DNA from: Magnetococcales bacterium
GTDB taxonomy: Bacteria > Pseudomonadota > Magnetococcia > Magnetococcales > Magnetaquicoccaceae
Assembly: GCA_015231755.1 (NCBI GenBank)
Contig: JADGAZ010000009.1
Span: forward strand, 1-64,000
DNA: 64,000 bases
Direction: 5' to 3'
This document shows, in pieces, positions 1,482 to 17,002 of the stretch. A program made the position numbers and the translations under genes. The notes under the pieces are model-generated. The model was not told the origin of the DNA and ran no database searches. It saw nothing but the letters and a program-made list of their open reading frames with translations. Each line of letters starts with the position of its first letter. The first letter of the stretch is position 1.

Positions 1482-2330
1482 ATGATAAAAACAAACATTG
1501 ATTACAATCGTCCAGTCATGTTGGCCGATAATGTGTATTGGGTGGGTCGTTATGATAAAGCCATTGGGTTTGCCAGCAACCCTTATCTGATTGTTGAGGA
1601 TGGGGAGGCGGTTTTGATCGACGGGGGCAGTCGTCCGGATTTCAGTACGGTGATGCGCAAGATTTTACAGGCTGGCGCGGCGCCGGGTGCCATCAGTCAT
1701 TTGATTTACCATCATTACGATCCCGATTTGTGCGGCAGTCTGCCCAATCTGGAAGACATGATTGATAATCCTGCATTGAAGGTGGTTTCCAAGCAGGAAA
1801 ACAACTCTTTCATCAGGCATTACGGAGGCCGGTTGGAACCCCATTGCATCGACGAGATGGGGCGGGAATTGATTTTGAAATCGGGCCGGAGGCTGCGTTT
1901 TATACCAACCCCTTATGCGCATTCATCCGGCAGTTTCATGACCTGGGATGAAAAATCAGGAGTCCTTTTCAGCAGCGATTTGTTTGGCGGTCTTGGAAAC
2001 GGTTCGGATTGGATGTTGTTTCTGAGTCTGGATGCGGTGTGTCATGACTGTCAGCAATCCATTCCCAAAGGTGCTCAAGATCTTTGCGCGACAGTCAACA
2101 CCCCTTGTCCTTTGTCCGGGCTTGCCAATTTTCACCGGAAGGTCATGCCTTCAAATGCCGCCTTGCGGTTTTCGTTGGAAAAGGTGCAAGAGTTGGACCC
2201 GGAGATGATTGCATCTCAACACGGTTCTGTCTTGTGTGGGAAGGCCGTGATCGGGATTGTGATACGGAAATTGATGGCGTTGGATGATGTGGGAATTGAT
2301 GGTGTGTTGAAGGAGATTGCCGGTGCTTGA
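1482..2330 (+). CDS. ODP-type oxygen-binding diiron (beta-lactamase fold) protein
   Basis: A 282-aa protein with the metallo-beta-lactamase fold of flavodiiron proteins, but without a flavodoxin domain. The metal site is visible: YHHYDPDLCGS around residues 76-86 aligns with the HxE/DxD motif of FprA-type proteins, AHSSGSFMTWDE follows at about 146, SSDLFGG at 164 supplies the bridging Asp, and a late SQHG supplies the last His. Stand-alone ODP proteins of this type are known O2/NO sensors in some bacteria. The stop overlaps the start of the histidine kinase downstream, so the two are translationally coupled and probably form one sensory unit. Catalytic rather than sensory use (NO or O2 reduction) is less likely because no flavodoxin or rubredoxin partner is nearby. 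Confidence 0.8.
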   Translation: MIKTNIDYNRPVMLADNVYWVGRYDKAIGFASNPYLIVEDGEAVLIDGGSRPDFSTVMRKILQAGAAPGAISHLIYHHYDPDLCGSLPNLEDMIDNPALKVVSKQENNSFIRHYGGRLEPHCIDEMGRELILKSGRRLRFIPTPYAHSSGSFMTWDEKSGVLFSSDLFGGLGNGSDWMLFLSLDAVCHDCQQSIPKGAQDLCATVNTPCPLSGLANFHRKVMPSNAALRFSLEKVQELDPEMIASQHGSVLCGKAVIGIVIRKLMALDDVGIDGVLKEIAGA

Positions 2331-3621
2331 ACACCATGCTTTGCTGGTCGAATGCGCCAAACGGGAGGATCCTCTGATTGATCAGGTGTTGTCCCTGATC
2401 TTGGAGCAAAAGGCCACGTTGGCGGAAAAGCGTATCAGTGATGCCTTGTTGGTGGAACTGGTCAGGCAATTGGTGGAGTCGGAACGCCAGTTGAGCGAGC
2501 ATAGAGAGTATTTATTAACAATTAAAGAGGTTTTGGAGCGACAGAACCAGGAATTGATTGAAGCCGACCGATTGAAACAGGATGTGGAATTGATCAGCCG
2601 GCACGACATGAAATCCCCTTTGAATGGATTGATCGGCTATTCGGATCTTCTTTTGGAGTCCGGCACGCTCTCCCCGGAACATCAGAACTATGTACGGATG
2701 ATGCGGAAAGCGGGTGTCACGGTGTTGCATATGGTCAATCTGTCTTTGGGATTGTACCGCATGGAACAGGGCTCCTATCGATTGGAGGCTGAGGACATCG
2801 ATTTGATTCCTGTGATCCGGGGGATTCGGGATGATTCCCAGGCCTTGATTTCTGGTCATCTGCTGAAAGTGGTCATCAGGATCCGGAATGGTGGGGGATC
2901 GGATGCTTTTTTTGTGCGGGCGGAAGAGGTTTTGTGTTACTCGATGCTGGCCAATCTGATCAAGAACGCTTTGGAGGCCTCCCCGGAAGGGGCATGGGTG
3001 ACCATCGAGCTGAGTGTGGGTGATGACGGTATGGGGGTGATCGAGATTGGCAACCAGGGGATGGTACCGGAAAAGATCAGGGATCGATTTTTCGAGAAAT
3101 ATGTTACCATCGGCAAGAATGCGGGAACGGGACTGGGTACCTATTCCGCCAGGCTGATCGTGGAGACCTTGGGGGGGACGATCCGGATGGAGTCGTCCGC
3201 GGACAGAGGTACCCGCATAACGGTGACCCTTCCGTTGGCCGAGCGGACCCGGCGGGATCATGGGACGTGGAGTCGATTGCGGTCCGATGATGCCGAACGC
3301 ATCGGGCCGGGTGGGGAGTCGCCAGGAGAGATGGAGTCCGGGAGTGTATCCGGGTTTCCGGATGCGGTTTCGCAACGCATGGAAAGGCTGCAAAAGGCTT
3401 TGGAGGATCGGCGGCTTGATGACGTGGTGCGCGAAATCATCTGGCTGAGGGGAGCCGCTTCTGAGGTCGGTGCCGGGCGTGTGGCCAGTCAGGCGGTGCG
3501 GTTACAGGGGATCGTGGAGATGGAGGCGTGGGATGAAGCCCATGCGGCCTTCTGGAGACTGGAAGCCATCGTGCAAAAGGCCGTCGCGACCCTGAGGGGG
3601 CGTGACGGGGGTGCGACGTGA
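2323..3621 (+). CDS. Soluble histidine kinase coupled to the ODP sensor
   Basis: A 432-aa kinase without membrane segments. I chose GTG 2323, which overlaps the upstream stop and has AAGGAG 7 nt before it; the TTG at 2317 is too close to that site. Residues 20-90 form a long helical/coiled-coil region. HisKA follows with phospho-acceptor H94 in RHDMKSPLNGL, then HATPase_c with an N box (NLIKNALEASPEG) and G boxes (TGLGTYSARLI). The last 90 residues look like an Hpt four-helix domain, but the usual AHxLKG is replaced by IIWLRG, so the phosphorylatable His is absent. No receiver domain or response regulator is adjacent. The input is probably the ODP protein, by protein-protein contact. Confidence 0.85.
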   Translation: MLEHHALLVECAKREDPLIDQVLSLILEQKATLAEKRISDALLVELVRQLVESERQLSEHREYLLTIKEVLERQNQELIEADRLKQDVELISRHDMKSPLNGLIGYSDLLLESGTLSPEHQNYVRMMRKAGVTVLHMVNLSLGLYRMEQGSYRLEAEDIDLIPVIRGIRDDSQALISGHLLKVVIRIRNGGGSDAFFVRAEEVLCYSMLANLIKNALEASPEGAWVTIELSVGDDGMGVIEIGNQGMVPEKIRDRFFEKYVTIGKNAGTGLGTYSARLIVETLGGTIRMESSADRGTRITVTLPLAERTRRDHGTWSRLRSDDAERIGPGGESPGEMESGSVSGFPDAVSQRMERLQKALEDRRLDDVVREIIWLRGAASEVGAGRVASQAVRLQGIVEMEAWDEAHAAFWRLEAIVQKAVATLRGRDGGAT

Positions 3622-4633: not shown

Positions 4634-5845
4634 ATGATCTCGTTTCAGGAGGCGTGTTCCTGGGTGCTGGCTGAAACCCGGCCTGTGGAGGAGGGGGTCT
4701 GGGTCCGGGTGGAAGAGGCTTTGGGGCGGGTGTTGTCGGCTTCGGTGCTGGCCTCTGCCGACGTGCCCAACCATGACAATTCCGCCATGGATGGTTATGC
4801 GGTTTGCAATCAGTCCTTTTCCGATGCCGGGTCGGAGGTCACCCTGACGGTGGTGGCGGATCTGCCGGCGGGGGATCGGATGACCCGGCGGTTGGGGGTG
4901 GGAGAGGCGGTGCGGATCATGACCGGGGCGCCGATTCCTCCTGGCTGCGACGGTGTGGTGATGCAGGAGTTGGTGCAACGGGATGGTGATCGGGTTGTGG
5001 TGCCGGTGGCCGGTCGGAAGATCGGCGAGAACATCCGACCTGCGGGAGAGGATATTCCCGCCGGATCGGTGGTGTTGAACCGGGGATGTCGGTTGCGGCC
5101 CGCCCATTTGGGATTGTTGACCTCGTTGGGTTGCGAACAGGTGGAGGTGTACCGGCGACCGGTGGTGGCTTTGTTATCCACGGGCAACGAGGTGGTCAGG
5201 GCGGGGACGCCTCTGCAACCCGGACAGGTCTATGACAGCAACCGGAGCGCCCTGCGCGCCGCTCTGATGGCCCTGGGGGTGGAGGTGCTGGATTTGGGGC
5301 TGGTGCGGGACAATCGTGAGGCGATTGCCACCGCTTTGGCCCGGGGCGGGGCCGAGGCCGATGCGGTCATCAGCACCGGCGGGGTATCGGTGGGGGATTA
5401 CGATCTGGTCAAGGAGGTGCTGCTGGACCAGGGGGCGATCCATTTCTGGCAGGTGGCCATGAAGCCCGGCAAGCCCCAGGCTTATGGCCAATTGGGCCGT
5501 GCCCGGTTTTTTGGGTTGCCGGGCAATCCGGTTTCGTGTCTGACGGTTTTTTTGTTGATTGTCCGTCCCGCCTTGTTGCGGCTGATGGGGGCGGCGGATG
5601 AGCCTCCGAAACGCATGCGCGCAACTTTTCGCGGCGCTTTGCACAAAAAACATTCCCGGATGGATTTCATTCGGGGGGTGGCCCATTTTGATGAAAACGG
5701 GGTCTGGGTGGAGACGACAGGACACCAGGGATCGGGCATTTTGACCAGTCTGTCCAGGGCCAATGTGTGGATTGTCCTGCCGGAAGCCCCGGCCAGACTG
5801 GTTGATGGGGATGATGTGACCATTCAATGGATCGAATATGAGTGA
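4634..5845 (+). CDS. moeA: Molybdopterin molybdenumtransferase MoeA
   Basis: A 403-aa enzyme that inserts molybdate into adenylylated molybdopterin. It has the full MoeA layout: NSAMDGYAV near residue 50, the [14 protein letters not shown] motif at about 97-110, the MoCF-binding core ([26 protein letters not shown] and GLPGNPVS), and a C-terminal beta-domain. Length is normal for the family. Its stop overlaps the moaC start by 8 bp, beginning a tight moeA-moaC-moaA operon that supplies the cofactor for the molybdoenzyme encoded 2 kb further on. Confidence 0.97.
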
Positions 5846-6350
5846 CGCGGCGGAGTTGACCCATTTCGACGAGCGGGGTGCGGCCCGCATGGTGGATGTG
5901 TCGGCCAAGGGGGTCACGGAGCGGGTGGCGGTGGCCGGAGGCGAGGTGATCATGGCGCCGGAGACCTTGCGGCTGATTCTGGATCGGGGGTTGTCCAAGG
6001 GGGATGTGCTGGAGACTGCCCGACTGGCTGGGATCATGGCGGCCAAGCGGGTGGACCAGTTGATTCCCTTGTGTCACACCCTGGATCTGACCTCGGTGGC
6101 TGTGGCGTTCGAGCCGGATTGGGCGGGCAGTCGGATGCGAATTCGCGCCGAGGTCAAATCCCTGGGACGGACCGGGGTGGAGATGGAAGCCATGACCGCC
6201 GTATCCGTGGCCGGGTTGACCATCTATGACATGTGCAAGGCCGTGGACCGTTGGATGGTGGTCGGCGGCATCCGTCTGCTGGAAAAACGCGGCGGCAAGA
6301 GTGGACACGTGGTGCGGCGGGACGACAATCCGGCTCCAGAGACGGATTGA
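5838..6350 (+). CDS. moaC: Cyclic pyranopterin monophosphate synthase MoaC
   Basis: A 170-aa enzyme that, with MoaA, converts GTP to cyclic pyranopterin monophosphate, the first step of molybdenum cofactor synthesis. It starts with the family signature of an N-terminal [18 protein letters not shown] stretch. The core motifs [10 protein letters not shown] and [13 protein letters not shown] and the catalytic KAVDRWM are all present. It overlaps moeA by 8 bp and is followed after 7 bp by moaA. Confidence 0.97.
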
Positions 6351-6357
6351 AAACGCC

Positions 6358-7356
6358 ATGCCCCTGACCGATTCCTTTGGCCGCGTCATGCGTTATCTGC
6401 GGGTGTCGGTGACCGACCGGTGCAATTTGCAATGTGACTATTGCCGTCCGGCGGGCGAACCTTTGTTGCCCAATCACCAGCAGTTGTTGACCCTGGAAGA
6501 GATCGTGCGTCTGAGCCGCCTGTTTGTGGAGTTGGGCATCGACCGCATCCGCTTGACGGGAGGCGAGCCTTTGTTGCGTCGCAATCTGGTGATGTTGGTC
6601 CGGGAACTGGCGGCCTTGCCGGGATTGCATGAGCTTTCGTTGACCACCAATGCCCTGCTGTTGGACCGCTATGCCGACGCGTTGCGCCAGGCCGGATTGC
6701 AGCGGGTCAACATCTCCCTGGATACCCTGAATCCGGAAACCTTTACCCGCATCACCCGGGGCGGGGATGTGAGCCGGGTGCTGGCGGGAATCGAGGCCGC
6801 GGTGCGGACCGGGTTGAAACCCGTCAAGATCAATATGGTGGTGATGCGTGACATCAACGACCACGAAATCCCGGATATGATCGCTTTTGCGGTGCGGCAT
6901 GGCCTGGTGTTGAGATTTATCGAAACCATGCCTGTGGGGCGGGCGGGATTGGGCGGGGCGGAACGTTATGTCCCGGCGGACGAGATTGTCAGCCGGGCCT
7001 GTCTCGGGGAAGGTCGGCATTGGATGCCGGTCGCCAACCCCCGGGAGGTGGGATCGGGTCCGGCGCGTTATTTTCGCATGGCCGGGAGCGAGGCGGAGGT
7101 GGGGATCATTTCGGCCCGTTCGCGCCACTTTTGCGACACCTGCAACCGCATGCGTCTGACCTCCCGGGGAGAGCTGGTATTGTGCCTCGGAGGCATGGAA
7201 CGGGTGGATCTGAAAACCCTCCTGCGGGACGGGGCTTCGGATCAAACCCTGCTGGATGGGATCCGGGCCGGCGTAGCCCGTAAACCCCAACGTCATCACT
7301 TCGAGCTGGGCGAGGCGGGGGCTTCCTCCTGGAACATGTCCGGGCTGGGAGGGTGA
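6358..7356 (+). CDS. moaA: GTP 3',8-cyclase MoaA (radical SAM)
   Basis: A 332-aa radical SAM enzyme. ATG 6358 begins the conserved MPLTDSFGRVMRYLRVSVTD leader; an upstream in-frame extension lies inside moaC and is not used. The SAM cluster motif CNLQCDYC gives C22, C26 and C29. The second, substrate-binding cluster is in the C-terminal segment FCDTCNRMRLTS...LCLGG. The protein ends in Gly-Gly, the tail needed for activity in MoaA. With MoaC it makes cPMP. moaD, moaE and mobA are not in this window. Confidence 0.97.
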   Translation: MPLTDSFGRVMRYLRVSVTDRCNLQCDYCRPAGEPLLPNHQQLLTLEEIVRLSRLFVELGIDRIRLTGGEPLLRRNLVMLVRELAALPGLHELSLTTNALLLDRYADALRQAGLQRVNISLDTLNPETFTRITRGGDVSRVLAGIEAAVRTGLKPVKINMVVMRDINDHEIPDMIAFAVRHGLVLRFIETMPVGRAGLGGAERYVPADEIVSRACLGEGRHWMPVANPREVGSGPARYFRMAGSEAEVGIISARSRHFCDTCNRMRLTSRGELVLCLGGMERVDLKTLLRDGASDQTLLDGIRAGVARKPQRHHFELGEAGASSWNMSGLGG

Positions 7357-7455: not shown

Positions 7456-8796
7456 TCATTCGGGCATGTTTTCGGCGATCCCTTCTCCCAGCTTGCGATA
7501 CAAGGTGCGTTCGCTGATGCCCAGTCTGGAGGCCAACTCCTTTTTGTTGCCGCGAAAGGTATGGATGAGGTGTCCCAGATACAGAGCCTCCCAGGCTTCC
7601 AGGGTCATGATGTTCTCTTCGTGGAGGGAGGGAAAAAGATGTCCCAAGGCGTCGGCAGGTCCACGGGTGGGGGTGATGCCCATATGTTCGGGTAGAATAT
7701 CGGTTCCGTCGCTCATCAGGCATCCCCGGGTCATCAGGTTGAGCAGTTCGCGTATGTTGCCGATGAAGGTGTGTCGGGTCAGGGCCTCCAGGGCGGCGGC
7801 GGTCAGGCGTTTACCCCGGCATTCGTCCAGGCGCAGGATCAGGGTCTGCGCCAGCACCGCGATGTCTTCCCGTCGTTCGTGCAGGGGCGGCAGCACAATG
7901 GGAAAGGTGCTGATCCGGTAAAACAGATCCAGACGGAACTCCCCTCGCTCCACCATGGTGGGCAGATCCCGATGGGTGGCGCAAATCAAACGGAAATCCG
8001 TGTGCAACGCATCGATTCCCCCCACACGTCGGAAGGTTTTGGTCTCCAGCAATCTCAGTAGCTTCACTTGCAACTGCAATGGCACATCACCGATTTCATC
8101 CAGAAACAAGGTGCCATGGTCCGCCAGTTCCACCAGTCCTTTTTTCTGGAGCAACGCTCCGGTGAACGCGCCTTTTTCGTGACCGAACAATTCCGATTCA
8201 AATAACGCCTCCGTCAGTCCGGAACACTCCACCGGGACAAACGACATGTTGGCCCGTGGACTCTCTTCGTGAATGGTGCGGGCAACCACCTCCTTGCCGG
8301 TGCCGGATTCCCCGGTGAGCAGCACCGATACCCGGCTTTTGGCGACCCGATCAATCAGCTTGAGCATGTTCTTGAACGCCGGAGAGTGACCAACCAGTCC
8401 AAGGGGTTTGGGTGACACGCTCGCGATGCGGGTTGGACTGAAGACCTCCAGCAGATGGCTGATTTGACCATCGCTGTCCATCAGGGGGCGCATTTCGACA
8501 TGCACATACTGTCGTCCCTGGGGGGTGATGTGGATGTGCAGCATGCGTTGCGGGGTTTTGGTTTCGAGACAGGCGGACATCGGGCAAGGTTCCCCCACTT
8601 GATCGCAGGGGCGGTCGTATTGATGGGACAACTCGTAGCAATAACGGTGAATTTCCGTGTCGGGTTCATGGTATTGATGGGAATAGGCCCGATTCCAGGC
8701 CACGACCCGGTAATTCAGATCCATCAGCAGTGCGGGTGTGCTGTAGCTGTCGAGAAAAGATGATGCTTCTAATAATAGAGATGAATGACCTGACAT
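7456..8796 (-). CDS. Sigma-54-dependent activator with Cys-rich PAS domain
   Basis: A 446-aa enhancer-binding protein. Residues 15-120 form a PAS-like input domain with four Cys (C53, C64, C71, C76) in an RYCYEL...RPC...CPMSAC arrangement, suggesting redox or Fe-S sensing. The AAA+ domain has Walker A GESGTGKE at 162-169 and the sigma-54 contact motif GAFTGA at 209-214. A Fis-type helix-turn-helix (KKELASRLGISERTLYRKL) ends the protein. It is transcribed divergently from the molybdoenzyme operon, whose upstream region contains a -24/-12 promoter. That makes it the likely activator of the operon. There is no receiver domain, so the signal is probably sensed directly. Confidence 0.92.
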   Translation of the reverse strand: MSGHSSLLLEASSFLDSYSTPALLMDLNYRVVAWNRAYSHQYHEPDTEIHRYCYELSHQYDRPCDQVGEPCPMSACLETKTPQRMLHIHITPQGRQYVHVEMRPLMDSDGQISHLLEVFSPTRIASVSPKPLGLVGHSPAFKNMLKLIDRVAKSRVSVLLTGESGTGKEVVARTIHEESPRANMSFVPVECSGLTEALFESELFGHEKGAFTGALLQKKGLVELADHGTLFLDEIGDVPLQLQVKLLRLLETKTFRRVGGIDALHTDFRLICATHRDLPTMVERGEFRLDLFYRISTFPIVLPPLHERREDIAVLAQTLILRLDECRGKRLTAAALEALTRHTFIGNIRELLNLMTRGCLMSDGTDILPEHMGITPTRGPADALGHLFPSLHEENIMTLEAWEALYLGHLIHTFRGNKKELASRLGISERTLYRKLGEGIAENMPE

Positions 8797-8841
8797 GTTA
8801 TCGTTCCTTTAACGTAATTTTGAAAAACTTCGGATGGATTT

Positions 8842-8885
8842 TGCCATAAATGACAAGCAAAAAGATCGGTCTGACATTTATGGCA
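8842..8885. promoter_or_regulatory. Two 14-bp palindromic sites, candidate activator UAS
   Basis: TGCCATAAATGACA (8842-8855) and TGACATTTATGGCA (8872-8885) each fit the dyad TG-N-CAT-NN-ATG-N-CA. They lie 30 bp centre to centre, about three helical turns. They also lie about 170 bp upstream of the -24 element at 9031, the usual distance for enhancer-binding proteins. Both are close to the regulator's own start, so autoregulation is possible. Confidence 0.65.
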
Positions 8886-9030
8886 GTTTAGCGCATGTCG
8901 CCTCCATAAACCAGACCTGGAAAACATGGATGCGGAACCGGAACGGTATTTGTTCAATCCATTGATTTTAATTGCGTTATTTTGGAGTATCCGGTGGGTG
9001 GAATCGGGAGGATTCGCCAAGAAAATTCAA

Positions 9031-9047
9031 TTGGTACATTCGTTGCT
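9031..9047 (+). promoter_or_regulatory. Sigma-54 (-24/-12) promoter of the molybdoenzyme operon
   Basis: TTGGTACATTCGTTGCT matches the RpoN consensus (TGGCAC-N5-TTGC): GG and GC are separated by exactly 10 bp and TTGCT is intact at -12. The start of transcription would fall near 9058, leaving a leader of about 75 nt before the ATG at 9135. This also argues against translation starting at the in-frame ATG 8982. Adjacent to a sigma-54 activator gene, the call is well supported. Confidence 0.75.
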
Positions 9048-9134
9048 CTCATGACTGACAAGACTAAGGATCCGGGCGACGGATTGGTCGTTCGTGAGCA
9101 TGAATCATCCAGGAAACAACGGGAGAAAACGGTT

Positions 9135-11912
9135 ATGACTTGGCGATTACCCAAACTGTCCAGACGTACAGTGATGCAGGCCGGACTTGGCGCGGCAGGT
9201 TTGAGTCTGCTTCAACCGGGACGTTGGATGGGGTCGGCGGAAGCCCGTCCCGAAGCCCAGCAGGCCTCACAAAAGACAGTCTACAGCATTTGCAATTTCT
9301 GTTCGTCCTTGTGCAATCTGCAAGTCACGGTCAAAACCGAAAACGGCACCAGCCGCATCACCAAACTGGACGGCAATCCCCACTCCACGTTGAACCGGGG
9401 CAAACTGTGCGCCCGGGGTCAATCGGGATTGCGTCAGGTCTACGATGTGGACCGCATCAAGACCCCCCTCATCCGGGTGGAAGGCAGCAAACGCGGGGAA
9501 GGCCGCTTCCGGGCCGCCACCTGGGAGGAGGCTTGGAGTTACATCGCCGACAAGGCCAAAAAGGCCGACATCAAACCCTGGGAATACACCATGGTGGGCG
9601 GCTGGACCTCTTGTGTCTTCTACATGAACTGGGCGGTGCCGTTTGCCCTGTCCAATGGCATTCCCAACATCATCGCCTCTCCCATGCAACACTGCGTGGC
9701 CTCGGGCCATCTGGGCACGGACTCGGTCACGGGCAATTTCAATATCCACGACGAGGTGTTGCCGGACTACGACAACGCCAATTACATTCTGTTCGTGGCC
9801 AACAATGCCTCCATCGGCGCGGTTTCCACCTCCCGCATGGTCCGTTTCGCCACCGGGCGCAAGAATGGTGCGCGGGTGGTGGCGTTGGACAGCCGTCTTT
9901 CCGAAACCGCCTCCAAGGCGGATGAATGGATCATGATCCGTCCCGGAACCGATCTGGATTTCATGATCGCGTTGATCCACGTCATTCTGGAAGAAAAGCT
10001 GTATGACGCCGAGTTCCTGAAACGTCACAGCAACATGCCATTCCTGGTCCATCGGGGCGAGGATGGCCAGTGGAAGATCTCCACGGATGAACAGGGCCGT
10101 CCCTACGCGATTCAGGCACTCACCGGTCAGGTGGTCACGCTGCCCGCCTACACCAACGACAACAGCCTGGACATCAACGGTCAGCCCACCGCTTTGGCGT
10201 TGTACGCCCCCAAGGATATGGTACTGGACGGCAAACCGGTGATGACGGTCCTTCAGGCCCAAGAGGCGGAAATCGCCAACCATACCCCCAAATGGGCCGA
10301 AAAGAGTACCGGCATTTCCGCCTTCACCATTCAGCGCATCGCCCGTGAGTTCGCCAGGGCCGGACGACCGATTGTCGATCCCGGTTGGCACGGGGCCCGT
10401 TACGCCAACATCAACATGTTGCGGCGTACCCAGGCGATGTTGCAGGCGTTGGTGGGGGGCATCGACCGGGAAGGTGGCTGGATCATGTCCGGGGAGTATC
10501 ACCACAAGGTCGCCAACTGGCAGGAAGCCAAAAAGGCCGGAAAAGCCATGCCCGGTCCCTTGATGACTTCCATGGCGGGCATTCCGTTTGTCGGGGAGTT
10601 GATCAAGGCCTTGTCCAATGGCAAGACCTTTCCCCATGGCAAGCCGGCGTGGGCTTTCGCTTTTTCGGCGCAGGAGCGGGCGGCGGGTCGCGAAGGGGTG
10701 GCGGTGCCGGCTCTGGCGGATACCGGTTTCTGGGAATCCTTGAACGGTACGTTGACCTATGGGGGCGAGCCTTATCTGAGTCGGGCGGTTGTCATCAATG
10801 CCGCCAATCCGATCCGTCATTATTATCCGGACACCCGTTGGAAGGACATCCTGTCCCACAAAAACATGGAACTGGTGGTGGTGGTGGATGTGCTGCCATC
10901 GGATACCATTCTGTACGCAGATGTGGTACTGCCTAATCCCACCTATCTGGAACGGGACGAACCCACCTTGTATGGCAATGGGGTCAATCACGACCTGACC
11001 CTCACCACCCGTTTCGCGGCCATCGACCCCTTGTTCGATACCCTGGAAACCCCGGACATTCTGCTGCATCTGAGTGAAATCATCAGCGGCAGCCATGAGC
11101 CTTTCATGGGGGCGTTGGAGCAACTCAGTGGCATTCCGGGCAAGGAGACCTGGGCCGCCTATCAGAAATTCCGCAAGCAAAAGGCCCGCAGTCCATTTGC
11201 CAAGGCCTGTCGCGAGACGGCTTTTGAATCCACCGCCGCCCGTCTCCACACCCGACCGGAGGTGTTGGAGCAGGAACTGTCCAAACGGGGCATTTTCCTG
11301 GAACAAAATCGTGATGACATCCTGGCGCATCACGCCATGCCACGGAAAATGGCCCTGCCCACCACCAGTGGACGCTTGGAATTTTACGGCAATCTGTTTT
11401 TGTGGTTGCAGCAGATGGGTGGAAAAGGGCCGTCGTTCAACCTGCTGGCCGCTCCCATGGAGGTGCAATGCCGTTCCGGTCTTGCCATGTCGGATCCGCT
11501 GGAAGCCGACGAATTCTATTTCACCTATGGCAAGACTCCCACGGTCTCTTATGGATCCACCAACAGCAACAATCCGGTGTTGGCGGCCATCAACCGTTTC
11601 AAGAAGGACATCTATACCGGCATTTGGATCCATCCGGAACGGGCCACGACGTTGGGCATTCAATCCGGGGACCGGATTCTCATCAGCAACACGCTGTCGG
11701 GACAAAAAGCCGAGGGTGTCGCGTTTGTCACCCGCCTGCTCCATCCGGATACGATGTTCATGCACTCCTCGTTCGGGGTGGAAAACAAGGCGTTGCGGTT
11801 GAGTTACGGCATTGGCACGGCAAGCAACAAGCTGATTCCCAATACGGTGGAGCCCTTGGTGGGGGGATTCCGTTCCCAGGAATTCACGGTTCGCATCGCC
11901 AAACTGGCTTGA
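9135..11912 (+). CDS. Tat-exported molybdopterin oxidoreductase, PsrA/PhsA-like catalytic subunit
   Basis: A 925-aa DMSO-reductase-family enzyme. ATG 9135 opens a Tat signal peptide (SRRTVM at 9-14, then a hydrophobic stretch to about 27), so the enzyme works in the periplasm. The N-terminal [4Fe-4S] site is C53-x2-C56-x3-C60-x31-C92. C187 in SPMQHCVASGH is the likely Mo ligand. The bis-MGD domains and the C-terminal barrel (TFMHSSFGVE-like region) complete the family length. With the next two genes it forms a complex iron-sulfur molybdoenzyme of the polysulfide/thiosulfate/tetrathionate/arsenate reductase group. The substrate cannot be read from sequence; a sulfur compound fits the SQR-like and Qmo genes in the window. 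The operon is preceded by a sigma-54 promoter. Confidence 0.9.
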   Translation: MTWRLPKLSRRTVMQAGLGAAGLSLLQPGRWMGSAEARPEAQQASQKTVYSICNFCSSLCNLQVTVKTENGTSRITKLDGNPHSTLNRGKLCARGQSGLRQVYDVDRIKTPLIRVEGSKRGEGRFRAATWEEAWSYIADKAKKADIKPWEYTMVGGWTSCVFYMNWAVPFALSNGIPNIIASPMQHCVASGHLGTDSVTGNFNIHDEVLPDYDNANYILFVANNASIGAVSTSRMVRFATGRKNGARVVALDSRLSETASKADEWIMIRPGTDLDFMIALIHVILEEKLYDAEFLKRHSNMPFLVHRGEDGQWKISTDEQGRPYAIQALTGQVVTLPAYTNDNSLDINGQPTALALYAPKDMVLDGKPVMTVLQAQEAEIANHTPKWAEKSTGISAFTIQRIAREFARAGRPIVDPGWHGARYANINMLRRTQAMLQALVGGIDREGGWIMSGEYHHKVANWQEAKKAGKAMPGPLMTSMAGIPFVGELIKALSNGKTFPHGKPAWAFAFSAQERAAGREGVAVPALADTGFWESLNGTLTYGGEPYLSRAVVINAANPIRHYYPDTRWKDILSHKNMELVVVVDVLPSDTILYADVVLPNPTYLERDEPTLYGNGVNHDLTLTTRFAAIDPLFDTLETPDILLHLSEIISGSHEPFMGALEQLSGIPGKETWAAYQKFRKQKARSPFAKACRETAFESTAARLHTRPEVLEQELSKRGIFLEQNRDDILAHHAMPRKMALPTTSGRLEFYGNLFLWLQQMGGKGPSFNLLAAPMEVQCRSGLAMSDPLEADEFYFTYGKTPTVSYGSTNSNNPVLAAINRFKKDIYTGIWIHPERATTLGIQSGDRILISNTLSGQKAEGVAFVTRLLHPDTMFMHSSFGVENKALRLSYGIGTASNKLIPNTVEPLVGGFRSQEFTVRIAKLA

Positions 11913-11950: not shown

Positions 11951-12550
11951 ATGACCCGTTATGCAATGGTCATCGACCTGAATACCTGTGTGGGATGCAA
12001 CGCCTGCATGGCCGCCTGCTCTCTGGAAAATCAGACTCCGGTCTGGTCGGACCAGTGGCGTACCTATGTGCAGGACCGGGAGTTGGGAGAGGGGCGTAAC
12101 GTATCCCGTCGCATCATGCCCAGATTGTGCAATCACTGTTCCAATCCCCCCTGCATGTCGGTCTGTCCCACGGGTGCGACCTATCAGACCGATACCGGCG
12201 TGGTGCTGGTGGACGAAACCTTGTGCATGGGTTGTCAGGCCTGTGCCATGGCCTGTCCGTATGATGCCCGTTACGCCTATACCCGTGAGGATATCAAGAC
12301 GGGCAAGGAGTATTACGGCGTGCTGAATCGCAAGGCTCCCAGCATGGACAAGTGCACGTTTTGCAACCATCGCCTGGAACGCGGAGAACCGCCGGCTTGC
12401 GTGCAAACCTGTGTCGGGTATTCACGTATGTTCTGCGATTTGGACAATCCATCTTATCATGCCACGACTTTGGTAAAAAGTGGCAAGGCCAAACCATTGA
12501 TGTCCCATCTCGGAACCCGGCCCAACGTTTACTATGTTCCGGAAAGATAA
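11951..12550 (+). CDS. Four-cluster ferredoxin subunit of the molybdoenzyme (PsrB-like)
   Basis: A 199-aa electron-transfer subunit. Four cysteine groups are visible: CVGCNACMAAC near residue 13, CNHCSNPPCMSVCP near 60, CMGCQACAMACP near 95, and CTFCNHRLERGEPPACVQTC near 135. This is the usual pattern for four [4Fe-4S] clusters in PsrB, DmsB and NrfC proteins. There is no signal peptide, so it would be carried across the membrane with the Tat-bearing catalytic subunit. It starts 38 bp after the catalytic gene and 10 bp before the membrane subunit gene. Confidence 0.93.
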   Translation: MTRYAMVIDLNTCVGCNACMAACSLENQTPVWSDQWRTYVQDRELGEGRNVSRRIMPRLCNHCSNPPCMSVCPTGATYQTDTGVVLVDETLCMGCQACAMACPYDARYAYTREDIKTGKEYYGVLNRKAPSMDKCTFCNHRLERGEPPACVQTCVGYSRMFCDLDNPSYHATTLVKSGKAKPLMSHLGTRPNVYYVPER

Positions 12551-12560
12551 AGGAGATGTT

Positions 12561-13517
12561 ATGGAAGTCATGACCTTCACGACGCAGAGCAACTGGACCT
12601 GGTGGTTTGCCATCTATCTGTTTTTGGGGGGGATGGGGGCTGCGGTCATCGCGGTCAGTTTTCTGACCCACATGTATTTGAGTAAGACCAAAGAACTGGT
12701 GATGTGGGGCGCTCTCTCCGGTGTGGCGATGATGGCGGTGGGTTCGGGCATGTTGTTTTTGCATCTGCTCAACAAATGGGCCGCCATCTACATCCTGACC
12801 CCCTGGGGGGTGTTCCACAAGCCGGACTCCTGGATCGCCTGGGGATCGCAGTTCATCATCTGGTTGCAAATCACGGCGTTGCTTTACGCGTTGCCCTTTA
12901 TGGTGGAAAAACCCCGCCTGCTGAACTGGCCTTTGGTGGGTACGGTCCTGAAACTGGATCTGGTGCGGGCCGTGGCGGCGAAAGTGGCCCCAATCCAAGG
13001 TATTCTCGGTTGGGTTTCGATCCTGACAGGCATCGGCACGGTGGTGTATACCGGTCTGTTGTTGCAAAGTTTTCCGGCTGTGGCCCTGTGGCACAATCCG
13101 GCGGTGCCGATTCTGTTCACGGTTTCCGCTTTTTCCACGGCCATGGCGTGGTTGCTGATCGTGATGTATCTCTTTATTTATCACCGGGTGGATCACTCGA
13201 TCCGCATTCTGTACGAGCGGGTGGACGTGGTGTTGATTACCGCCGAGTTGGTGATTCTGTTCTCGTTTTTCAACTATACCCTGTCCGGCTCCGAAGGGGG
13301 CTATCGTTCGGCGGCGATGCTGTGGGGATCCGCGGGCTGGGTGGTGGGCTTCATCGGTTGTGGGTTGCTGGTGCCTTTGGCGCTGGAGTTGAAGTGCGTC
13401 TTTGGAAACTGGGGTGGCAAACGGGTGATCGTACCGGCTTCGATGCTGGTGTTGACCGGTGGTTATCTGTTGCGGCACTACTTCATGGCCGCGGGCATCT
13501 ACGCGTTTCCCTGGTGA
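12561..13517 (+). CDS. NrfD/PsrC-type membrane quinone-interacting subunit
   Basis: A 318-aa polytopic membrane protein with about eight to nine hydrophobic helices. ATG 12561 is chosen because AGGAG precedes it by 5 nt. The first helix region (WWFAIYLFLGGMGAA) is typical of NrfD/PsrC proteins. Such subunits carry no heme and exchange electrons between the menaquinone or ubiquinone pool and the Fe-S subunit. It completes a three-subunit CISM complex with the two upstream genes. The TorD-like gene begins only 4 bp after its stop. Confidence 0.92.
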   Translation: MEVMTFTTQSNWTWWFAIYLFLGGMGAAVIAVSFLTHMYLSKTKELVMWGALSGVAMMAVGSGMLFLHLLNKWAAIYILTPWGVFHKPDSWIAWGSQFIIWLQITALLYALPFMVEKPRLLNWPLVGTVLKLDLVRAVAAKVAPIQGILGWVSILTGIGTVVYTGLLLQSFPAVALWHNPAVPILFTVSAFSTAMAWLLIVMYLFIYHRVDHSIRILYERVDVVLITAELVILFSFFNYTLSGSEGGYRSAAMLWGSAGWVVGFIGCGLLVPLALELKCVFGNWGGKRVIVPASMLVLTGGYLLRHYFMAAGIYAFPW

Positions 13518-13521
13518 TGAC

Positions 13522-14190
13522 ATGAATGATCCGTGTGAACCCGCCTGTGGTGGTCCCGGAGCGTTGCGTCACGGCTCCGGAGATCCCCACGGCGAGCCAT
13601 CCGGCCACGGTTCCTTCGGCTGCCAGGAGCCTCGGCTTCTGGCAGCCGAATTGAGTCTGCTGGCCCATCTGCTTTCCCAACCGGTTGCCGAATCCCTGGA
13701 AGCCCTGGAAGAAGAGGCGCTCACCTCCGCGCCCTGGTTGGCCGACGTGCTGCCGGAGTTGCGCCAACTGCCGCTGGATGCTTGGCAGGGTGAGCATACC
13801 CGATTGTTTGTCAACGGGTTCCCCAAAACCATCTGCCCGCCTTTTGTTTCCTTTTGGCGCCATGGCCAATGGGGCGGACCGCTGGAAGGGGTATTGTTTC
13901 AGTTGTATCAGCGGATCGGGCTGGAGGTGGCGGAGGGGCAGCCACTGGATTATCTGGGGGTCTTGTTGCAGGCGTCGTCTTATTGCCTGGAGGTGATGGC
14001 CAGCAAACCGGTGGATGTCGTTTCGCCGGAAAGTGAAGTCTTGACCCATTTGTTGCGGGACCATCTGTTGTTGTGTCTGCCTGAGTTCGCGGCGGCGTTG
14101 CGTCAGTCCGCCGGGTTGATTTTTTACCGGACCCTGGGGGAGCGGTTTGAACGGCTCGCGGTCCGACTGGCCGCGGGGGGGGTGACATGA
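13522..14190 (+). CDS. TorD/DmsD-like molybdoenzyme maturation chaperone
   Basis: A 222-aa all-helical cytoplasmic protein. The core signature of the family is visible as EHTRLFVNGFPKTICPPFVSFW around residues 95-115, equivalent to the E-x-x-RLF...PPYxS motif of TorD and DmsD. Such chaperones bind the Tat signal of the catalytic subunit and hold it until the cofactor is inserted. The first 35 residues are a Gly/His/Pro-rich extension not usual for the family. It overlaps the next gene by 4 bp (ATGA). Confidence 0.82.
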   Translation: MNDPCEPACGGPGALRHGSGDPHGEPSGHGSFGCQEPRLLAAELSLLAHLLSQPVAESLEALEEEALTSAPWLADVLPELRQLPLDAWQGEHTRLFVNGFPKTICPPFVSFWRHGQWGGPLEGVLFQLYQRIGLEVAEGQPLDYLGVLLQASSYCLEVMASKPVDVVSPESEVLTHLLRDHLLLCLPEFAAALRQSAGLIFYRTLGERFERLAVRLAAGGVT

Positions 14191-14777
14191 CCTCCGGTTG
14201 GATCCTGCATCCGGCGGATGACGCGGCCCTGCAAGCGGTCACCGTGGAGCGTTATACCCAGTTGTATCAAAGCCATCGGCAGGAGGGGATGGAGAATGGG
14301 GTGGATTTCTGGGCCATGCCGCCCCGGGGTTGGCCAGTGGAGGCCCGTTCGTTCCGCCATCTGGATCCCTGGAGGATTTTCTTGTTGCTGACCCCCTGGA
14401 TGCTCATGCGGGTGCTGATGCCGATGCGGGATCCGGGTCTGCCGTTGCCCCCGGGATGGGGGGAGCCGGATGGTCCGGAGTCCGGCGGCCTGCTGGGGCC
14501 GCTGTTGACCGTGTATCTGCTGGGACAAAAACAGATGGCCCATTTGCATCGGGATCCGGTTCTGGGTGACTATCTGATTCAACCTCTGGTACAATCCTTG
14601 CATAAATATGCCAATCCCGAGGCGGTGTTTTCCGCCTGGACCGAAACGGTGCAACGCCGTGACGCCTTCGTCCAGGCCAGCAACCGACGTTGCGACTGGC
14701 AACAGGATTTGTCTCGCAGGGAGATCTTTTCTGGATTGTTCCGGGAGCGTAAACCTTCCTGCGATACGACAACTTGA
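14187..14777 (+). CDS. HybE-family-like protein (hydrogenase-chaperone fold) in the molybdoenzyme operon
   Basis: A 196-aa soluble protein. Residues 40-80 (VEARSFRHLDPWRIFLLLTP followed by WMLMRVLMP) match the pattern of the [NiFe]-hydrogenase assembly chaperone family HybE/HupJ, where VEAVxFRxWEG...LVTPWFMNLVLLP is conserved. The later segment LGDYLIQPLVQSLHKYANPE corresponds to the family's G-x-Y-x-x-xSLxSPMxEFAD region. No hydrogenase gene is nearby. The 4-bp overlap with the TorD-like gene indicates a role in maturing the molybdoenzyme, perhaps its Fe-S subunit. The family call is by pattern only. Confidence 0.6.
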   Translation: MTSGWILHPADDAALQAVTVERYTQLYQSHRQEGMENGVDFWAMPPRGWPVEARSFRHLDPWRIFLLLTPWMLMRVLMPMRDPGLPLPPGWGEPDGPESGGLLGPLLTVYLLGQKQMAHLHRDPVLGDYLIQPLVQSLHKYANPEAVFSAWTETVQRRDAFVQASNRRCDWQQDLSRREIFSGLFRERKPSCDTTT

Positions 14778-14808: not shown

Positions 14809-15795
14809 ATGAACCATTTGCTGCGTTGTCTGGCCGTGGTGGGCCTGTTGGGCGCCACCCCTGTCGCTTTTGCCGCGGACGAAACGCCACCCGCCGAGAT
14901 CATGCGTTATGCCATCGAGGGCAATCTGGATGGGGTTGTCAAGGCGCTGGAGCAGGGGGCGGCCATCAATCAACCCAGTCAGACCGGCATGACGCCGCTG
15001 ATGTGGGCGATTCAGGAATCCCATTTCAAGCTGATTGACATGCTGTTGGAAAAAGGCGCGGATGTGAACGCCTTTCATCCCCGGGCCGGATGCACCGCGC
15101 TGATTCTGGCCAGCGAGTGGTTGCAGCCCCAGACCGTGGATGCTTTGCTCAAGCGCGAGGCCAATGTCAACTATCAGACCAATCACGGCTGGAGCGCCTT
15201 GCTGAAAACCTCCCGGCTGGCCCTCAAGACTCCGGAAGAGCGGGCTCGTCAGAAGCGGGTGGTGGAGAGTCTTCTGGCCCACGGCGCCAAGATCGATGCC
15301 CGTGACAACAAGGAGCGGACCTCCCTGATGCTCGCCGCCAAGGTTGGCAATACCGAGCTGGTGGCCCAACTGCTGGAACACAAGGCGGATATCAACGCCC
15401 AGGACAAAACCGGCAACAGCGCTTTGATGTTGGCGGCCCAGGAGGGGCAGTTGGAGAGTGTCAAGCTGTTATTGAAGCACAACGCGTCGTTGGAAAAAAA
15501 TCATATCTGCGGATGTACCGCGTTGCTTCAGGCCGCGGAACATGGGCACACGGAGGTGGTGAAGACTTTGTTGGATCACCATGCGGACATTCACGTCAAA
15601 AACGAAGACGGCATGACCGCCCTGATGTTCGCTTCCATGAAAGGCCATCTGGAAACCGTGGCGTTGCTGCTGGAACGGGGATCCCGGATCAATGAGATGA
15701 ACAACAAAGGGGTCACGGCCCGGTTGATGGCTGTGGAAAACCATCACGAGAAGGTGGAACAACTGCTTCAGGAGTCGGGTGGCCGCTGTTATTGA
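14809..15795 (+). CDS. Periplasmic ankyrin-repeat protein
   Basis: A 328-aa secreted protein. ATG 14809 has GGAGGAGG 8 nt upstream. Residues 1-23 are a signal peptide ending VAFAAD. The rest is built from about nine to ten ankyrin repeats of about 33 aa with the usual G-x-TPLMxA...G....V..LL...A.v..... pattern. Two repeats carry GCTALILA or GCTALLQA with Cys in place of the usual residue. It lies 31 bp after the HybE-like gene and before a terminator, so it is probably the last gene of the molybdoenzyme operon. Periplasmic ankyrin proteins are known to act beside exported heme enzymes such as catalases; here it may protect or scaffold the exported enzyme. Confidence 0.85.
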   Translation: MNHLLRCLAVVGLLGATPVAFAADETPPAEIMRYAIEGNLDGVVKALEQGAAINQPSQTGMTPLMWAIQESHFKLIDMLLEKGADVNAFHPRAGCTALILASEWLQPQTVDALLKREANVNYQTNHGWSALLKTSRLALKTPEERARQKRVVESLLAHGAKIDARDNKERTSLMLAAKVGNTELVAQLLEHKADINAQDKTGNSALMLAAQEGQLESVKLLLKHNASLEKNHICGCTALLQAAEHGHTEVVKTLLDHHADIHVKNEDGMTALMFASMKGHLETVALLLERGSRINEMNNKGVTARLMAVENHHEKVEQLLQESGGRCY

Positions 15796-15830
15796 CCTGC
15801 GGATTTCCTTAAAGACAGCGTGAATCGGCA

Positions 15831-15858
15831 AGGGGCGGTGTGAACCGCCCCTTTTTTT
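15831..15858 (+). terminator. Rho-independent terminator of the molybdoenzyme operon
   Basis: AGGGGCGGT and ACCGCCCCT pair perfectly across a 4-nt loop and are followed by seven T. It lies 36 bp after the ankyrin gene stop and just before the end of the convergent SQR-like gene. Confidence 0.85.
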
Positions 15859-15871
15859 ATCGCAAGGGGGA

Positions 15872-17002
15872 TCAGGTGTAGGGGCGGAGGCTTTTGTACT
15901 CCAGAAATTGCTTGACCCAGTGCATGAGCCGCAAGGGGGGCAGGATCAGATCGAACCACTCCAGCCGCGAGACCAGCATGCCGGAGTTCAAGGAATCGAC
16001 GATGCAAATCAGTTCGTTGCGGAAGGTGGCCTGTCCCGGTTTTCCCATCAGATCGTCATACAGATTGGCAGCGGCGGCCCGGGCTTGCAGTTCGGCCATA
16101 TGGGCCTGTTTGGCCCGCCATTCCGGTCCGGGCAGACTGGCGGCATCACCCGCCACATAGACTCGCTCATGGCCTGTCACCCGGCAGTGGGCATCCGCTG
16201 TGATGAATCCACCCGCAGAGAGTGGAAATCCGGTCTCCGCATACCAGGGCAGTCCACCCATGCCCGGAATGAACAACGTCAGGTCGGCGGCCAACTCTCC
16301 TCCCTCCAGCGTGACCCCGGACGGGGTGAACCCCAGAATTTTTTCTCCCAGTCGGGTGGCGATTTTCTTTTCCGCCATGGTGGACAACAGACCTTGCACC
16401 GCCCGGGGGCCAAGCCGTTTGCCGGGTTCCGCCATGGGGGAGAAAAAGACCAGATTGAAACGATCCCGGCGGCCTGTGCGCAACAAATGGGTGTGCATGC
16501 CGAACAGATATTCAAACATGGGGCCTCCCCGTACCCCCTGGGGATCCACGGGATTGCCAGCAAACCCGAAGGCGATGGTTCCCCCGGACATCTGTTGCAA
16601 TCGATCCCGTACCGTTTCTACCATGGGAATGCCGGCGCAGGGATTGATGGTATGCTCGATGCCGGGAAGCTTGCGCAAATAGGTGCCACCGCTGGCGATC
16701 AACAGGGCATCGTTGTGGATTGCGCCATCCGCGGTGGTGACGATGCGTCCCTTGTCCCGGATCCCTGTGGCTTCCGCCTGATGATGATGCACCCCCATGC
16801 GCTGAAAGAATCCACTCAGATCCGCCACGATTTCCGACCCGTTTCGTTCCCCGGAGGGAATCCAGATCAGACTCGGGTAATAGAGAAATTGTGGTTTGGG
16901 AGAGAGGACCGTCAGTTCCAGTTGACGGCCTGGATCTTTTTTCCGGAGTGTCTTGATGGCTTCCAGTGCGGCGAAATTGCTTCCCAGGATTGTTATCCGC
17001 AT
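15872..17002 (-). CDS. Sulfide:quinone oxidoreductase-like FAD-dependent oxidoreductase
   Basis: A 376-aa two-dinucleotide-binding-domain flavoprotein (SQR/FCSD/NDH-2 superfamily). The N-terminal Rossmann segment (ITILGSNFAALEAIKTLRKK) is a poor GxGxxG. ALLIASGG and VYVAGDAASLPG are the usual central and C-terminal FAD motifs, and the C-terminus (RLMHWVKQFLEYKSL) is the amphipathic helix expected in membrane-attached SQRs. Only part of the SQR cysteine set is evident: C122 and the Cys in ELICIVDS near the end, with no clear third Cys in the FAD-proximal position. Sulfide is therefore a reasonable but unproven substrate. It is convergent with the sulfur-type molybdoenzyme operon. Confidence 0.72.
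   Translation of the reverse strand: MRITILGSNFAALEAIKTLRKKDPGRQLELTVLSPKPQFLYYPSLIWIPSGERNGSEIVADLSGFFQRMGVHHHQAEATGIRDKGRIVTTADGAIHNDALLIASGGTYLRKLPGIEHTINPCAGIPMVETVRDRLQQMSGGTIAFGFAGNPVDPQGVRGGPMFEYLFGMHTHLLRTGRRDRFNLVFFSPMAEPGKRLGPRAVQGLLSTMAEKKIATRLGEKILGFTPSGVTLEGGELAADLTLFIPGMGGLPWYAETGFPLSAGGFITADAHCRVTGHERVYVAGDAASLPGPEWRAKQAHMAELQARAAAANLYDDLMGKPGQATFRNELICIVDSLNSGMLVSRLEWFDLILPPLRLMHWVKQFLEYKSLRPYT

Follow-up and report, generated by a model that had tools for sequence, protein, structure and literature searches.

The window, that is, the whole 64,000-nucleotide stretch of a Magnetococcales genome analyzed here, carries a sigma-54 activator gene and a molybdoenzyme operon that are transcribed divergently. 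This arrangement raises the question of whether the gap between them is the control region of the operon and, if so, to which signal the activator responds. The features of the locus are listed in Table 1.

Table 1. Predicted features of the activator-molybdoenzyme locus (positions in the window)
Feature	Position	Strand or type	Remarks
Probable FisR-type sigma-54 activator	7456-8796	-	PAS sensor with Cys53/64/71, AAA+ with GAFTGA, Fis-type HTH
Divergent gap	8797-9134	338 bp	Between the activator ORF (7456-8796, -) and the molA ATG (9135)
Upstream activator site 1 (putative), TGCCATAAATGACA	8842-8855	14-bp palindrome	Conserved in 13/13 gaps
Upstream activator site 2 (putative), TGACATTTATGGCA	8872-8885	14-bp palindrome	Conserved in 13/13 gaps
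IHF consensus match (tentative), WATCAANNNNTTR	8955-8967	-	0 mismatches; shuffle p=0.022; center at about -97
-24/-12 sigma-54 promoter (predicted), TTGGTACATTCGTTGCT	9031-9047	+	Predicted +1 at about 9058; site aligned in relatives
molA, PsrA/PhsA-like molybdopterin catalytic subunit, twin-arginine signal	9135-11912	+	Arg10-Arg11 conserved
molB, ferredoxin-type Fe-S subunit	11951-12550	+	Nearest solved relative PsrB (2vpw_B)
molC, NrfD/PsrC-type membrane subunit	12534-13517	+	Pfam NrfD, 91 bits
TorD-family chaperone	13522-14190	+	Pfam Nitrate_red_del; syntenic in relatives
HybE-like chaperone	14187-14777	+	Pfam NiFe-hyd_HybE, 29.9 bits (cutoff 25); syntenic in relatives
Ankyrin-repeat protein, signal-peptide-like start (by eye)	14809-15795	+	Syntenic in most relatives
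Terminator: 10-bp GC-rich hairpin, then T run	15830-15853	+	Operon end

Promoter and palindromes in the divergent gap

The original prediction placed a -24/-12 promoter with an exact 10-bp spacing between GG and GC in the 338-bp gap, and the sequence bore this out. The site TTGGTACATTCGTTGCT has GG at 9033-9034 and GC at 9045-9046 with 10 bp between them, and fits the pattern YTGGCAC-N5-TTGCW. The best sigma-54 site of the gap scored 16.1 bits, which was equaled in 0 of 500 shuffles; the matrix weights were approximate and chosen by us, and the conserved alignment of the promoter described below is independent of them. The relaxed consensus TGGYAC-N5-TTGC matched at two places in the window against 0.32 expected, and the second match (14587-14601), which lies inside the HybE-like gene, was taken as chance. 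The genome also contains an RpoN gene (PF04963 at G000:C18, 215.9 bits).

The starts of the two palindromes are 30 bp apart, corresponding to 2.9 helical turns, so that the predicted spacing of three turns held. Measured from the predicted +1, their centers lie about 210 and 180 bp upstream, and the distance of about 170 bp given by the original prediction fits when it is taken to the -24 box. The exact single-palindrome pattern occurred at 10 places in the genome against 1 for a control pattern, the other places being isolated, and the pair with 0 mismatches was unique in the 3.84-Mb genome. The IHF consensus match lies between the activator sites and the promoter. It is exact here but was not consistently conserved in the gaps of relatives, and it was therefore dropped as a conserved part and kept as tentative only.

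Conservation of the control region within the order

We looked for the activator in 61 genomes. The search for the molybdoenzyme covered 48 genomes from the order and about 400 from the phylum. Orthologues of the molybdoenzyme (approximately 70-85% identical) were found in 15 genomes, all within this order, and the junction was readable in 13 of them including the source genome. In all 13, the activator was divergent from the molybdoenzyme, and the gap contained a pair of TGNCA-N4-TGNCA palindromes 30-32 bp apart together with a sigma-54-like site at the matching place. The score of the pair was 15 or 16 of 16 in each gap (p<0.002 each, against dinucleotide shuffles). The palindromes, whose persistence in relatives keeping both genes had been set beforehand as a test of the prediction, were conserved in every readable gap. 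Since the genomes are related, the 13 gaps do not represent 13 independent events; the identity of the activator to the source protein drops to about 50%, and the gaps barely align outside the sites. When the pair was searched genome-wide, five of the six exact matches with a 17-bp spacer were orthologous gaps, as were five of six with an 18-bp spacer, and the reversed controls of the spaced-pair search gave no matches in whole genomes.

The -12 element was TTGC in most relatives, and TTGA or TTGT in genus g14. Because the latter variants were also found in promoter-like sites at FisR-type loci outside the order, they may be tolerated in this regulon. The promoter site of genome G020 was weak (shuffle p=0.062). 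The distance from the center of site 2 to the +1 varied from 142 to 180 bp across genomes, which is compatible with DNA looping. The molA gene of G020 (L149, G020:C174, 5008-7964) falls into two overlapping frames, probably owing to an assembly or frameshift break.

Two genomes, G035 and G045 (L141 and L144), served as a natural control. Their activators are 76-80% identical to the operon-linked ones of their own genus, and the molABC operon was not found in either assembly (G035 is 99% complete, G045 only 78%). Across the gap, a gene for the protein adenylyltransferase SelO is divergent from the activator, and the palindrome pair was absent from both gaps (best score 10-11, p 0.4-0.9). A tree of the activators placed all 14 that are linked to the operon in one 16-row group with those of G035 and G045, a group whose support of 82/90 is not firm. 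In the stretches of relatives that were inspected, no SelO gene lay near the activator, so that a simple deletion between activator and SelO is not supported as the source of the G035/G045 arrangement.

In summary, the predicted sigma-54 control by the divergent activator is supported by 13 genomes in which the palindrome pair, the promoter, the order of the genes and the activator clade are all conserved, by the intact GAFTGA motif in the AAA+ domain and by the presence of RpoN.

The activator and its sensor domain

The activator matched the Pfam models Sigma54_activat (222 bits), PAS_4 (36.7 bits) and HTH_8 (31.4 bits), and its AlphaFold model (mean pLDDT 81) showed a PAS-like order of helices and strands. 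Its scores were far below the family cutoffs for NifA (313 vs 528.9 bits) and NtrC (274.8 vs 558.6 bits), and nitrogen control by these families was rejected on these scores.

The sensor had been described as a PAS domain with four cysteines. All four are present; however, the conserved set consists of three, since Cys53, Cys64 and Cys71 were invariant in the alignment of 35 homologues (35/35; this order, Gammaproteobacteria and Betaproteobacteria), whereas Cys76 gives way to Ser, Ala, Val or Leu in 12 of them and can no longer be regarded as part of a defining four-Cys sensor. The residues His58, His87 and His89 are also invariant and close to the cysteines, leaving metal binding possible.

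In the Cupriavidus metallidurans homologue, read from its ATG, the only N-terminal cysteines are those at 53, 64 and 71. Next to its gene are a Blh/SQR-like gene and an MBL gene of the persulfide-dioxygenase-like kind; the latter shares 71% identity with the persulfide-dioxygenase-like MBL protein at the locus of an Oxalobacteraceae homologue. The gammaproteobacterial activator homologues adjoin cytochrome bd genes. Based on the shared positions of the three cysteines and the gene context in Cupriavidus, the activator is probably of the FisR type and senses sulfane sulfur, which narrows the original expectation of redox- or substrate-sensed control. The reactive cysteines of FisR were reportedly numbered 53, 64 and 71 by Li and coworkers in 2017. 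On reaction with sulfane sulfur, FisR is reported to form a tetrasulfide link and thereafter to activate sigma-54 transcription, in Cupriavidus that of sulfide-oxidizing genes (PMC8469610, PMC12170894).

FisR-type paralogues were observed at other loci of the order. One of them (4992-6401 in L147, G024:C31:7500-18800) lacks the fourth Cys and is divergent from another molybdopterin oxidoreductase (7755-10736; 24.6% identity to molA), which has a ferredoxin subunit; a short gene separates the two. This is a second FisR-type gene beside a molybdoenzyme. In L131, L134, L142, L143, L146 and L148, the paralogues are divergent from a recurring short gene whose product resembles NYHxIxxWIexRxxxYxINlExWV, with no Pfam match for the one tested. 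A cation efflux gene is located near the paralogue at some loci.

The target operon and its neighborhood

The six genes of the operon are packed between 9135 and 15795, and their order is kept in relatives. The ATG at 9135 is the likely start of molA, since it aligns with the starts of the other full-length orthologues and is followed by the conserved Arg10-Arg11 (motif identified by eye), and since the in-frame ATG at 9051 precedes the predicted +1. The best matches of molA were PhsA (NCBIfam) and Thermus PsrA (solved structures), followed by ArrA and DMSO-II relatives, and that of molB among solved structures was Thermus PsrB; among family models, molB scored best on TtrB and DsrO. As molA reached 321.6 bits against a cutoff of 694 for the PhsA equivalog NF012032, the system was named PsrABC/PhsABC-like and not PhsA. 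The structure model of molA (mean pLDDT 44) was unusable. The predicted periplasmic sulfur-type reductase is thus compatible with the Arg-Arg signal and the best matches. A periplasmic role of the ankyrin protein in enzyme assembly is possible.

The cofactor genes moeA, moaC and moaA (4634-7356; MoeA and MoaC named by eye from the translations) adjoin the activator gene. The genome contains dsrA, in line with sulfur metabolism, and a reconstruction for a freshwater member of the order described reverse Dsr-type sulfur metabolism (PMC6783814). An SQR-like flavoprotein gene (15872-17002) on the opposite strand is convergent with the operon. Its orthologues in G007 and G009 are on the operon strand directly after the ankyrin gene. 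The activator is linked to molABC and not, as FisR typically is, to sqr/pdo genes. At 1482-3621, a gene for a metallo-beta-lactamase-fold protein of the ODP family (ODP, 187.8 bits) extends over the beginning of a histidine-kinase-like ORF (2317-3621). Proteins of the ODP family can bind oxygen, and the two genes may encode an oxygen-sensing pair.

Proposed mechanism and alternatives

The sites and their conservation, the co-occurrence of the genes, the domain layout, the invariant cysteines and the synteny are read from sequence; the binding of the activator, its inducer, DNA looping, the start of the transcript and the substrate of the enzyme are inferred as follows. The one-component activator would bind both TGNCA-N4-TGNCA palindromes and contact the RNA polymerase-sigma54 at 9031-9047 by DNA looping, possibly aided by IHF at 8955-8967. 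Cytoplasmic sulfane sulfur (polysulfide or persulfide) would modify Cys53, Cys64 and Cys71 of the PAS domain, and the modified domain would release the AAA+ ATPase, which would open the promoter. One transcript would then cover molABC and the genes for the TorD-family chaperone, HybE-like chaperone and ankyrin protein. The product would be a periplasmic, quinone-linked PsrABC/PhsABC-like molybdoenzyme, and the sensed class of compounds is accordingly probably its substrate or close to it. We consider this whole explanation, with 8842-9047 as the control region of a FisR-type switch for a PsrABC/PhsABC-like operon, to be likely. The chances appear evenly balanced for the wider proposal that a FisR-type sensor was re-wired in this order from sulfide detoxification to a respiratory polysulfide/thiosulfate-type molybdoenzyme, with intracellular zero-valent sulfur as the switch and TGNCA-N4-TGNCA as a family-wide FisR operator.

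The alternatives concern the signal, the enzyme and the target of the palindromes. The same sigma-54 switch could sense oxygen, redox state or metal if the Cys/His cluster of the PAS domain bound a metal or Fe-S center or formed disulfides. The invariant Cys53, His58, Cys64, Cys71, His87 and His89 could ligate a metal, and cation efflux genes adjoin some paralogues in the order; however, this mode of sensing seems unlikely, as the closest characterized relative by context and Cys positions is FisR, which is reported to react with sulfane sulfur, and the controlled operon resembles sulfur enzymes. A larger, though still minor, chance is given to a switch that works as described for an enzyme that functions as an oxidase or has another oxyanion (arsenate, tetrathionate or selenate) as its substrate. 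Within this enzyme superfamily, the substrate cannot be read from sequence alone, and both the ArrA and DMSO-II scores of molA and the TtrB and DsrO scores of molB leave room for such a substrate, whereas a sulfur compound is favored by the PhsA and Thermus PsrA/PsrB matches and by the FisR-type regulator.

It is also conceivable that the palindromes mainly autoregulate the activator gene and that the -24/-12 site is driven from elsewhere or inert. The palindromes are located 46-89 bp upstream of the activator gene start, so the activator may control its own gene as well; in relatives, the sites are closer to the activator start than to the operon start, and TGNCA-N4-TGNCA-like sites occur near the activator start in several FisR-type homologues elsewhere. 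As a main function, however, autoregulation appears very improbable, because the pair is gone in the operon-less G035 and G045 while the activator persists, and the genomes with the operon retain an aligned promoter-like sequence. Autoregulation and control of molA are not mutually exclusive.

Comparison with known systems

The regulation of the synthesis of Psr/Phs-type sulfur molybdoenzymes is poorly described, and a conserved switch whose sensor, operator and promoter are defined provides a direct, testable handle on it. The operator may help to predict FisR targets elsewhere, for example in the cytochrome bd operons of Gammaproteobacteria or in sediment bacteria that cycle sulfur. If TGNCA-N4-TGNCA is truly family-wide, FisR regulons would become readable from genomes. 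The pairing of a FisR-type sensor with a PsrABC-like target was not found in the searchable literature, and a term search of that literature, requiring at least four of five terms, gave no paper that links polysulfide or thiosulfate reductase to sigma-54 activators.

The nearest systems are the FisR of Cupriavidus pinatubonensis JMP134 and the C. metallidurans homologue, which are likewise one-component PAS/AAA+/Fis proteins with Cys 53/64/71, divergent from their target. The Cupriavidus FisR-type gap contains TGNCA-type half-sites and a TGGCAC-type -24 element as here; however, the targets there are persulfide dioxygenase, SQR and similar genes, whereas here the target is a PsrABC-like operon preceded by two regularly spaced palindromes. 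The FisR of Acinetobacter baumannii is also divergent from its target, the sulfide-induced operon pdo1-sqr-tauE with a predicted sigma-54 promoter, but differs in responding to sulfide without the regulatory cysteines (PMC7315123), so that the cysteine rule is not universal among FisR-named proteins.

On the enzyme side, subunits A and B match Thermus thermophilus PsrABC (2vpw) and PhsA best, with an NrfD-family C subunit and a twin-arginine signal; molA has 925 aa compared with 765 aa in 2vpw_A, and the operon here adds two chaperone genes and an ankyrin gene. NifA, NtrC and the EBPs of Desulfovibrio likewise combine upstream sites with a -24/-12 promoter but differ in sensor domain and targets; most of the Desulfovibrio EBPs control one to four operons each (PMC4641369). 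The parts of the present switch are therefore of known types, and it is the pairing of a FisR-type sensor with a PsrABC-like target that is apparently new.
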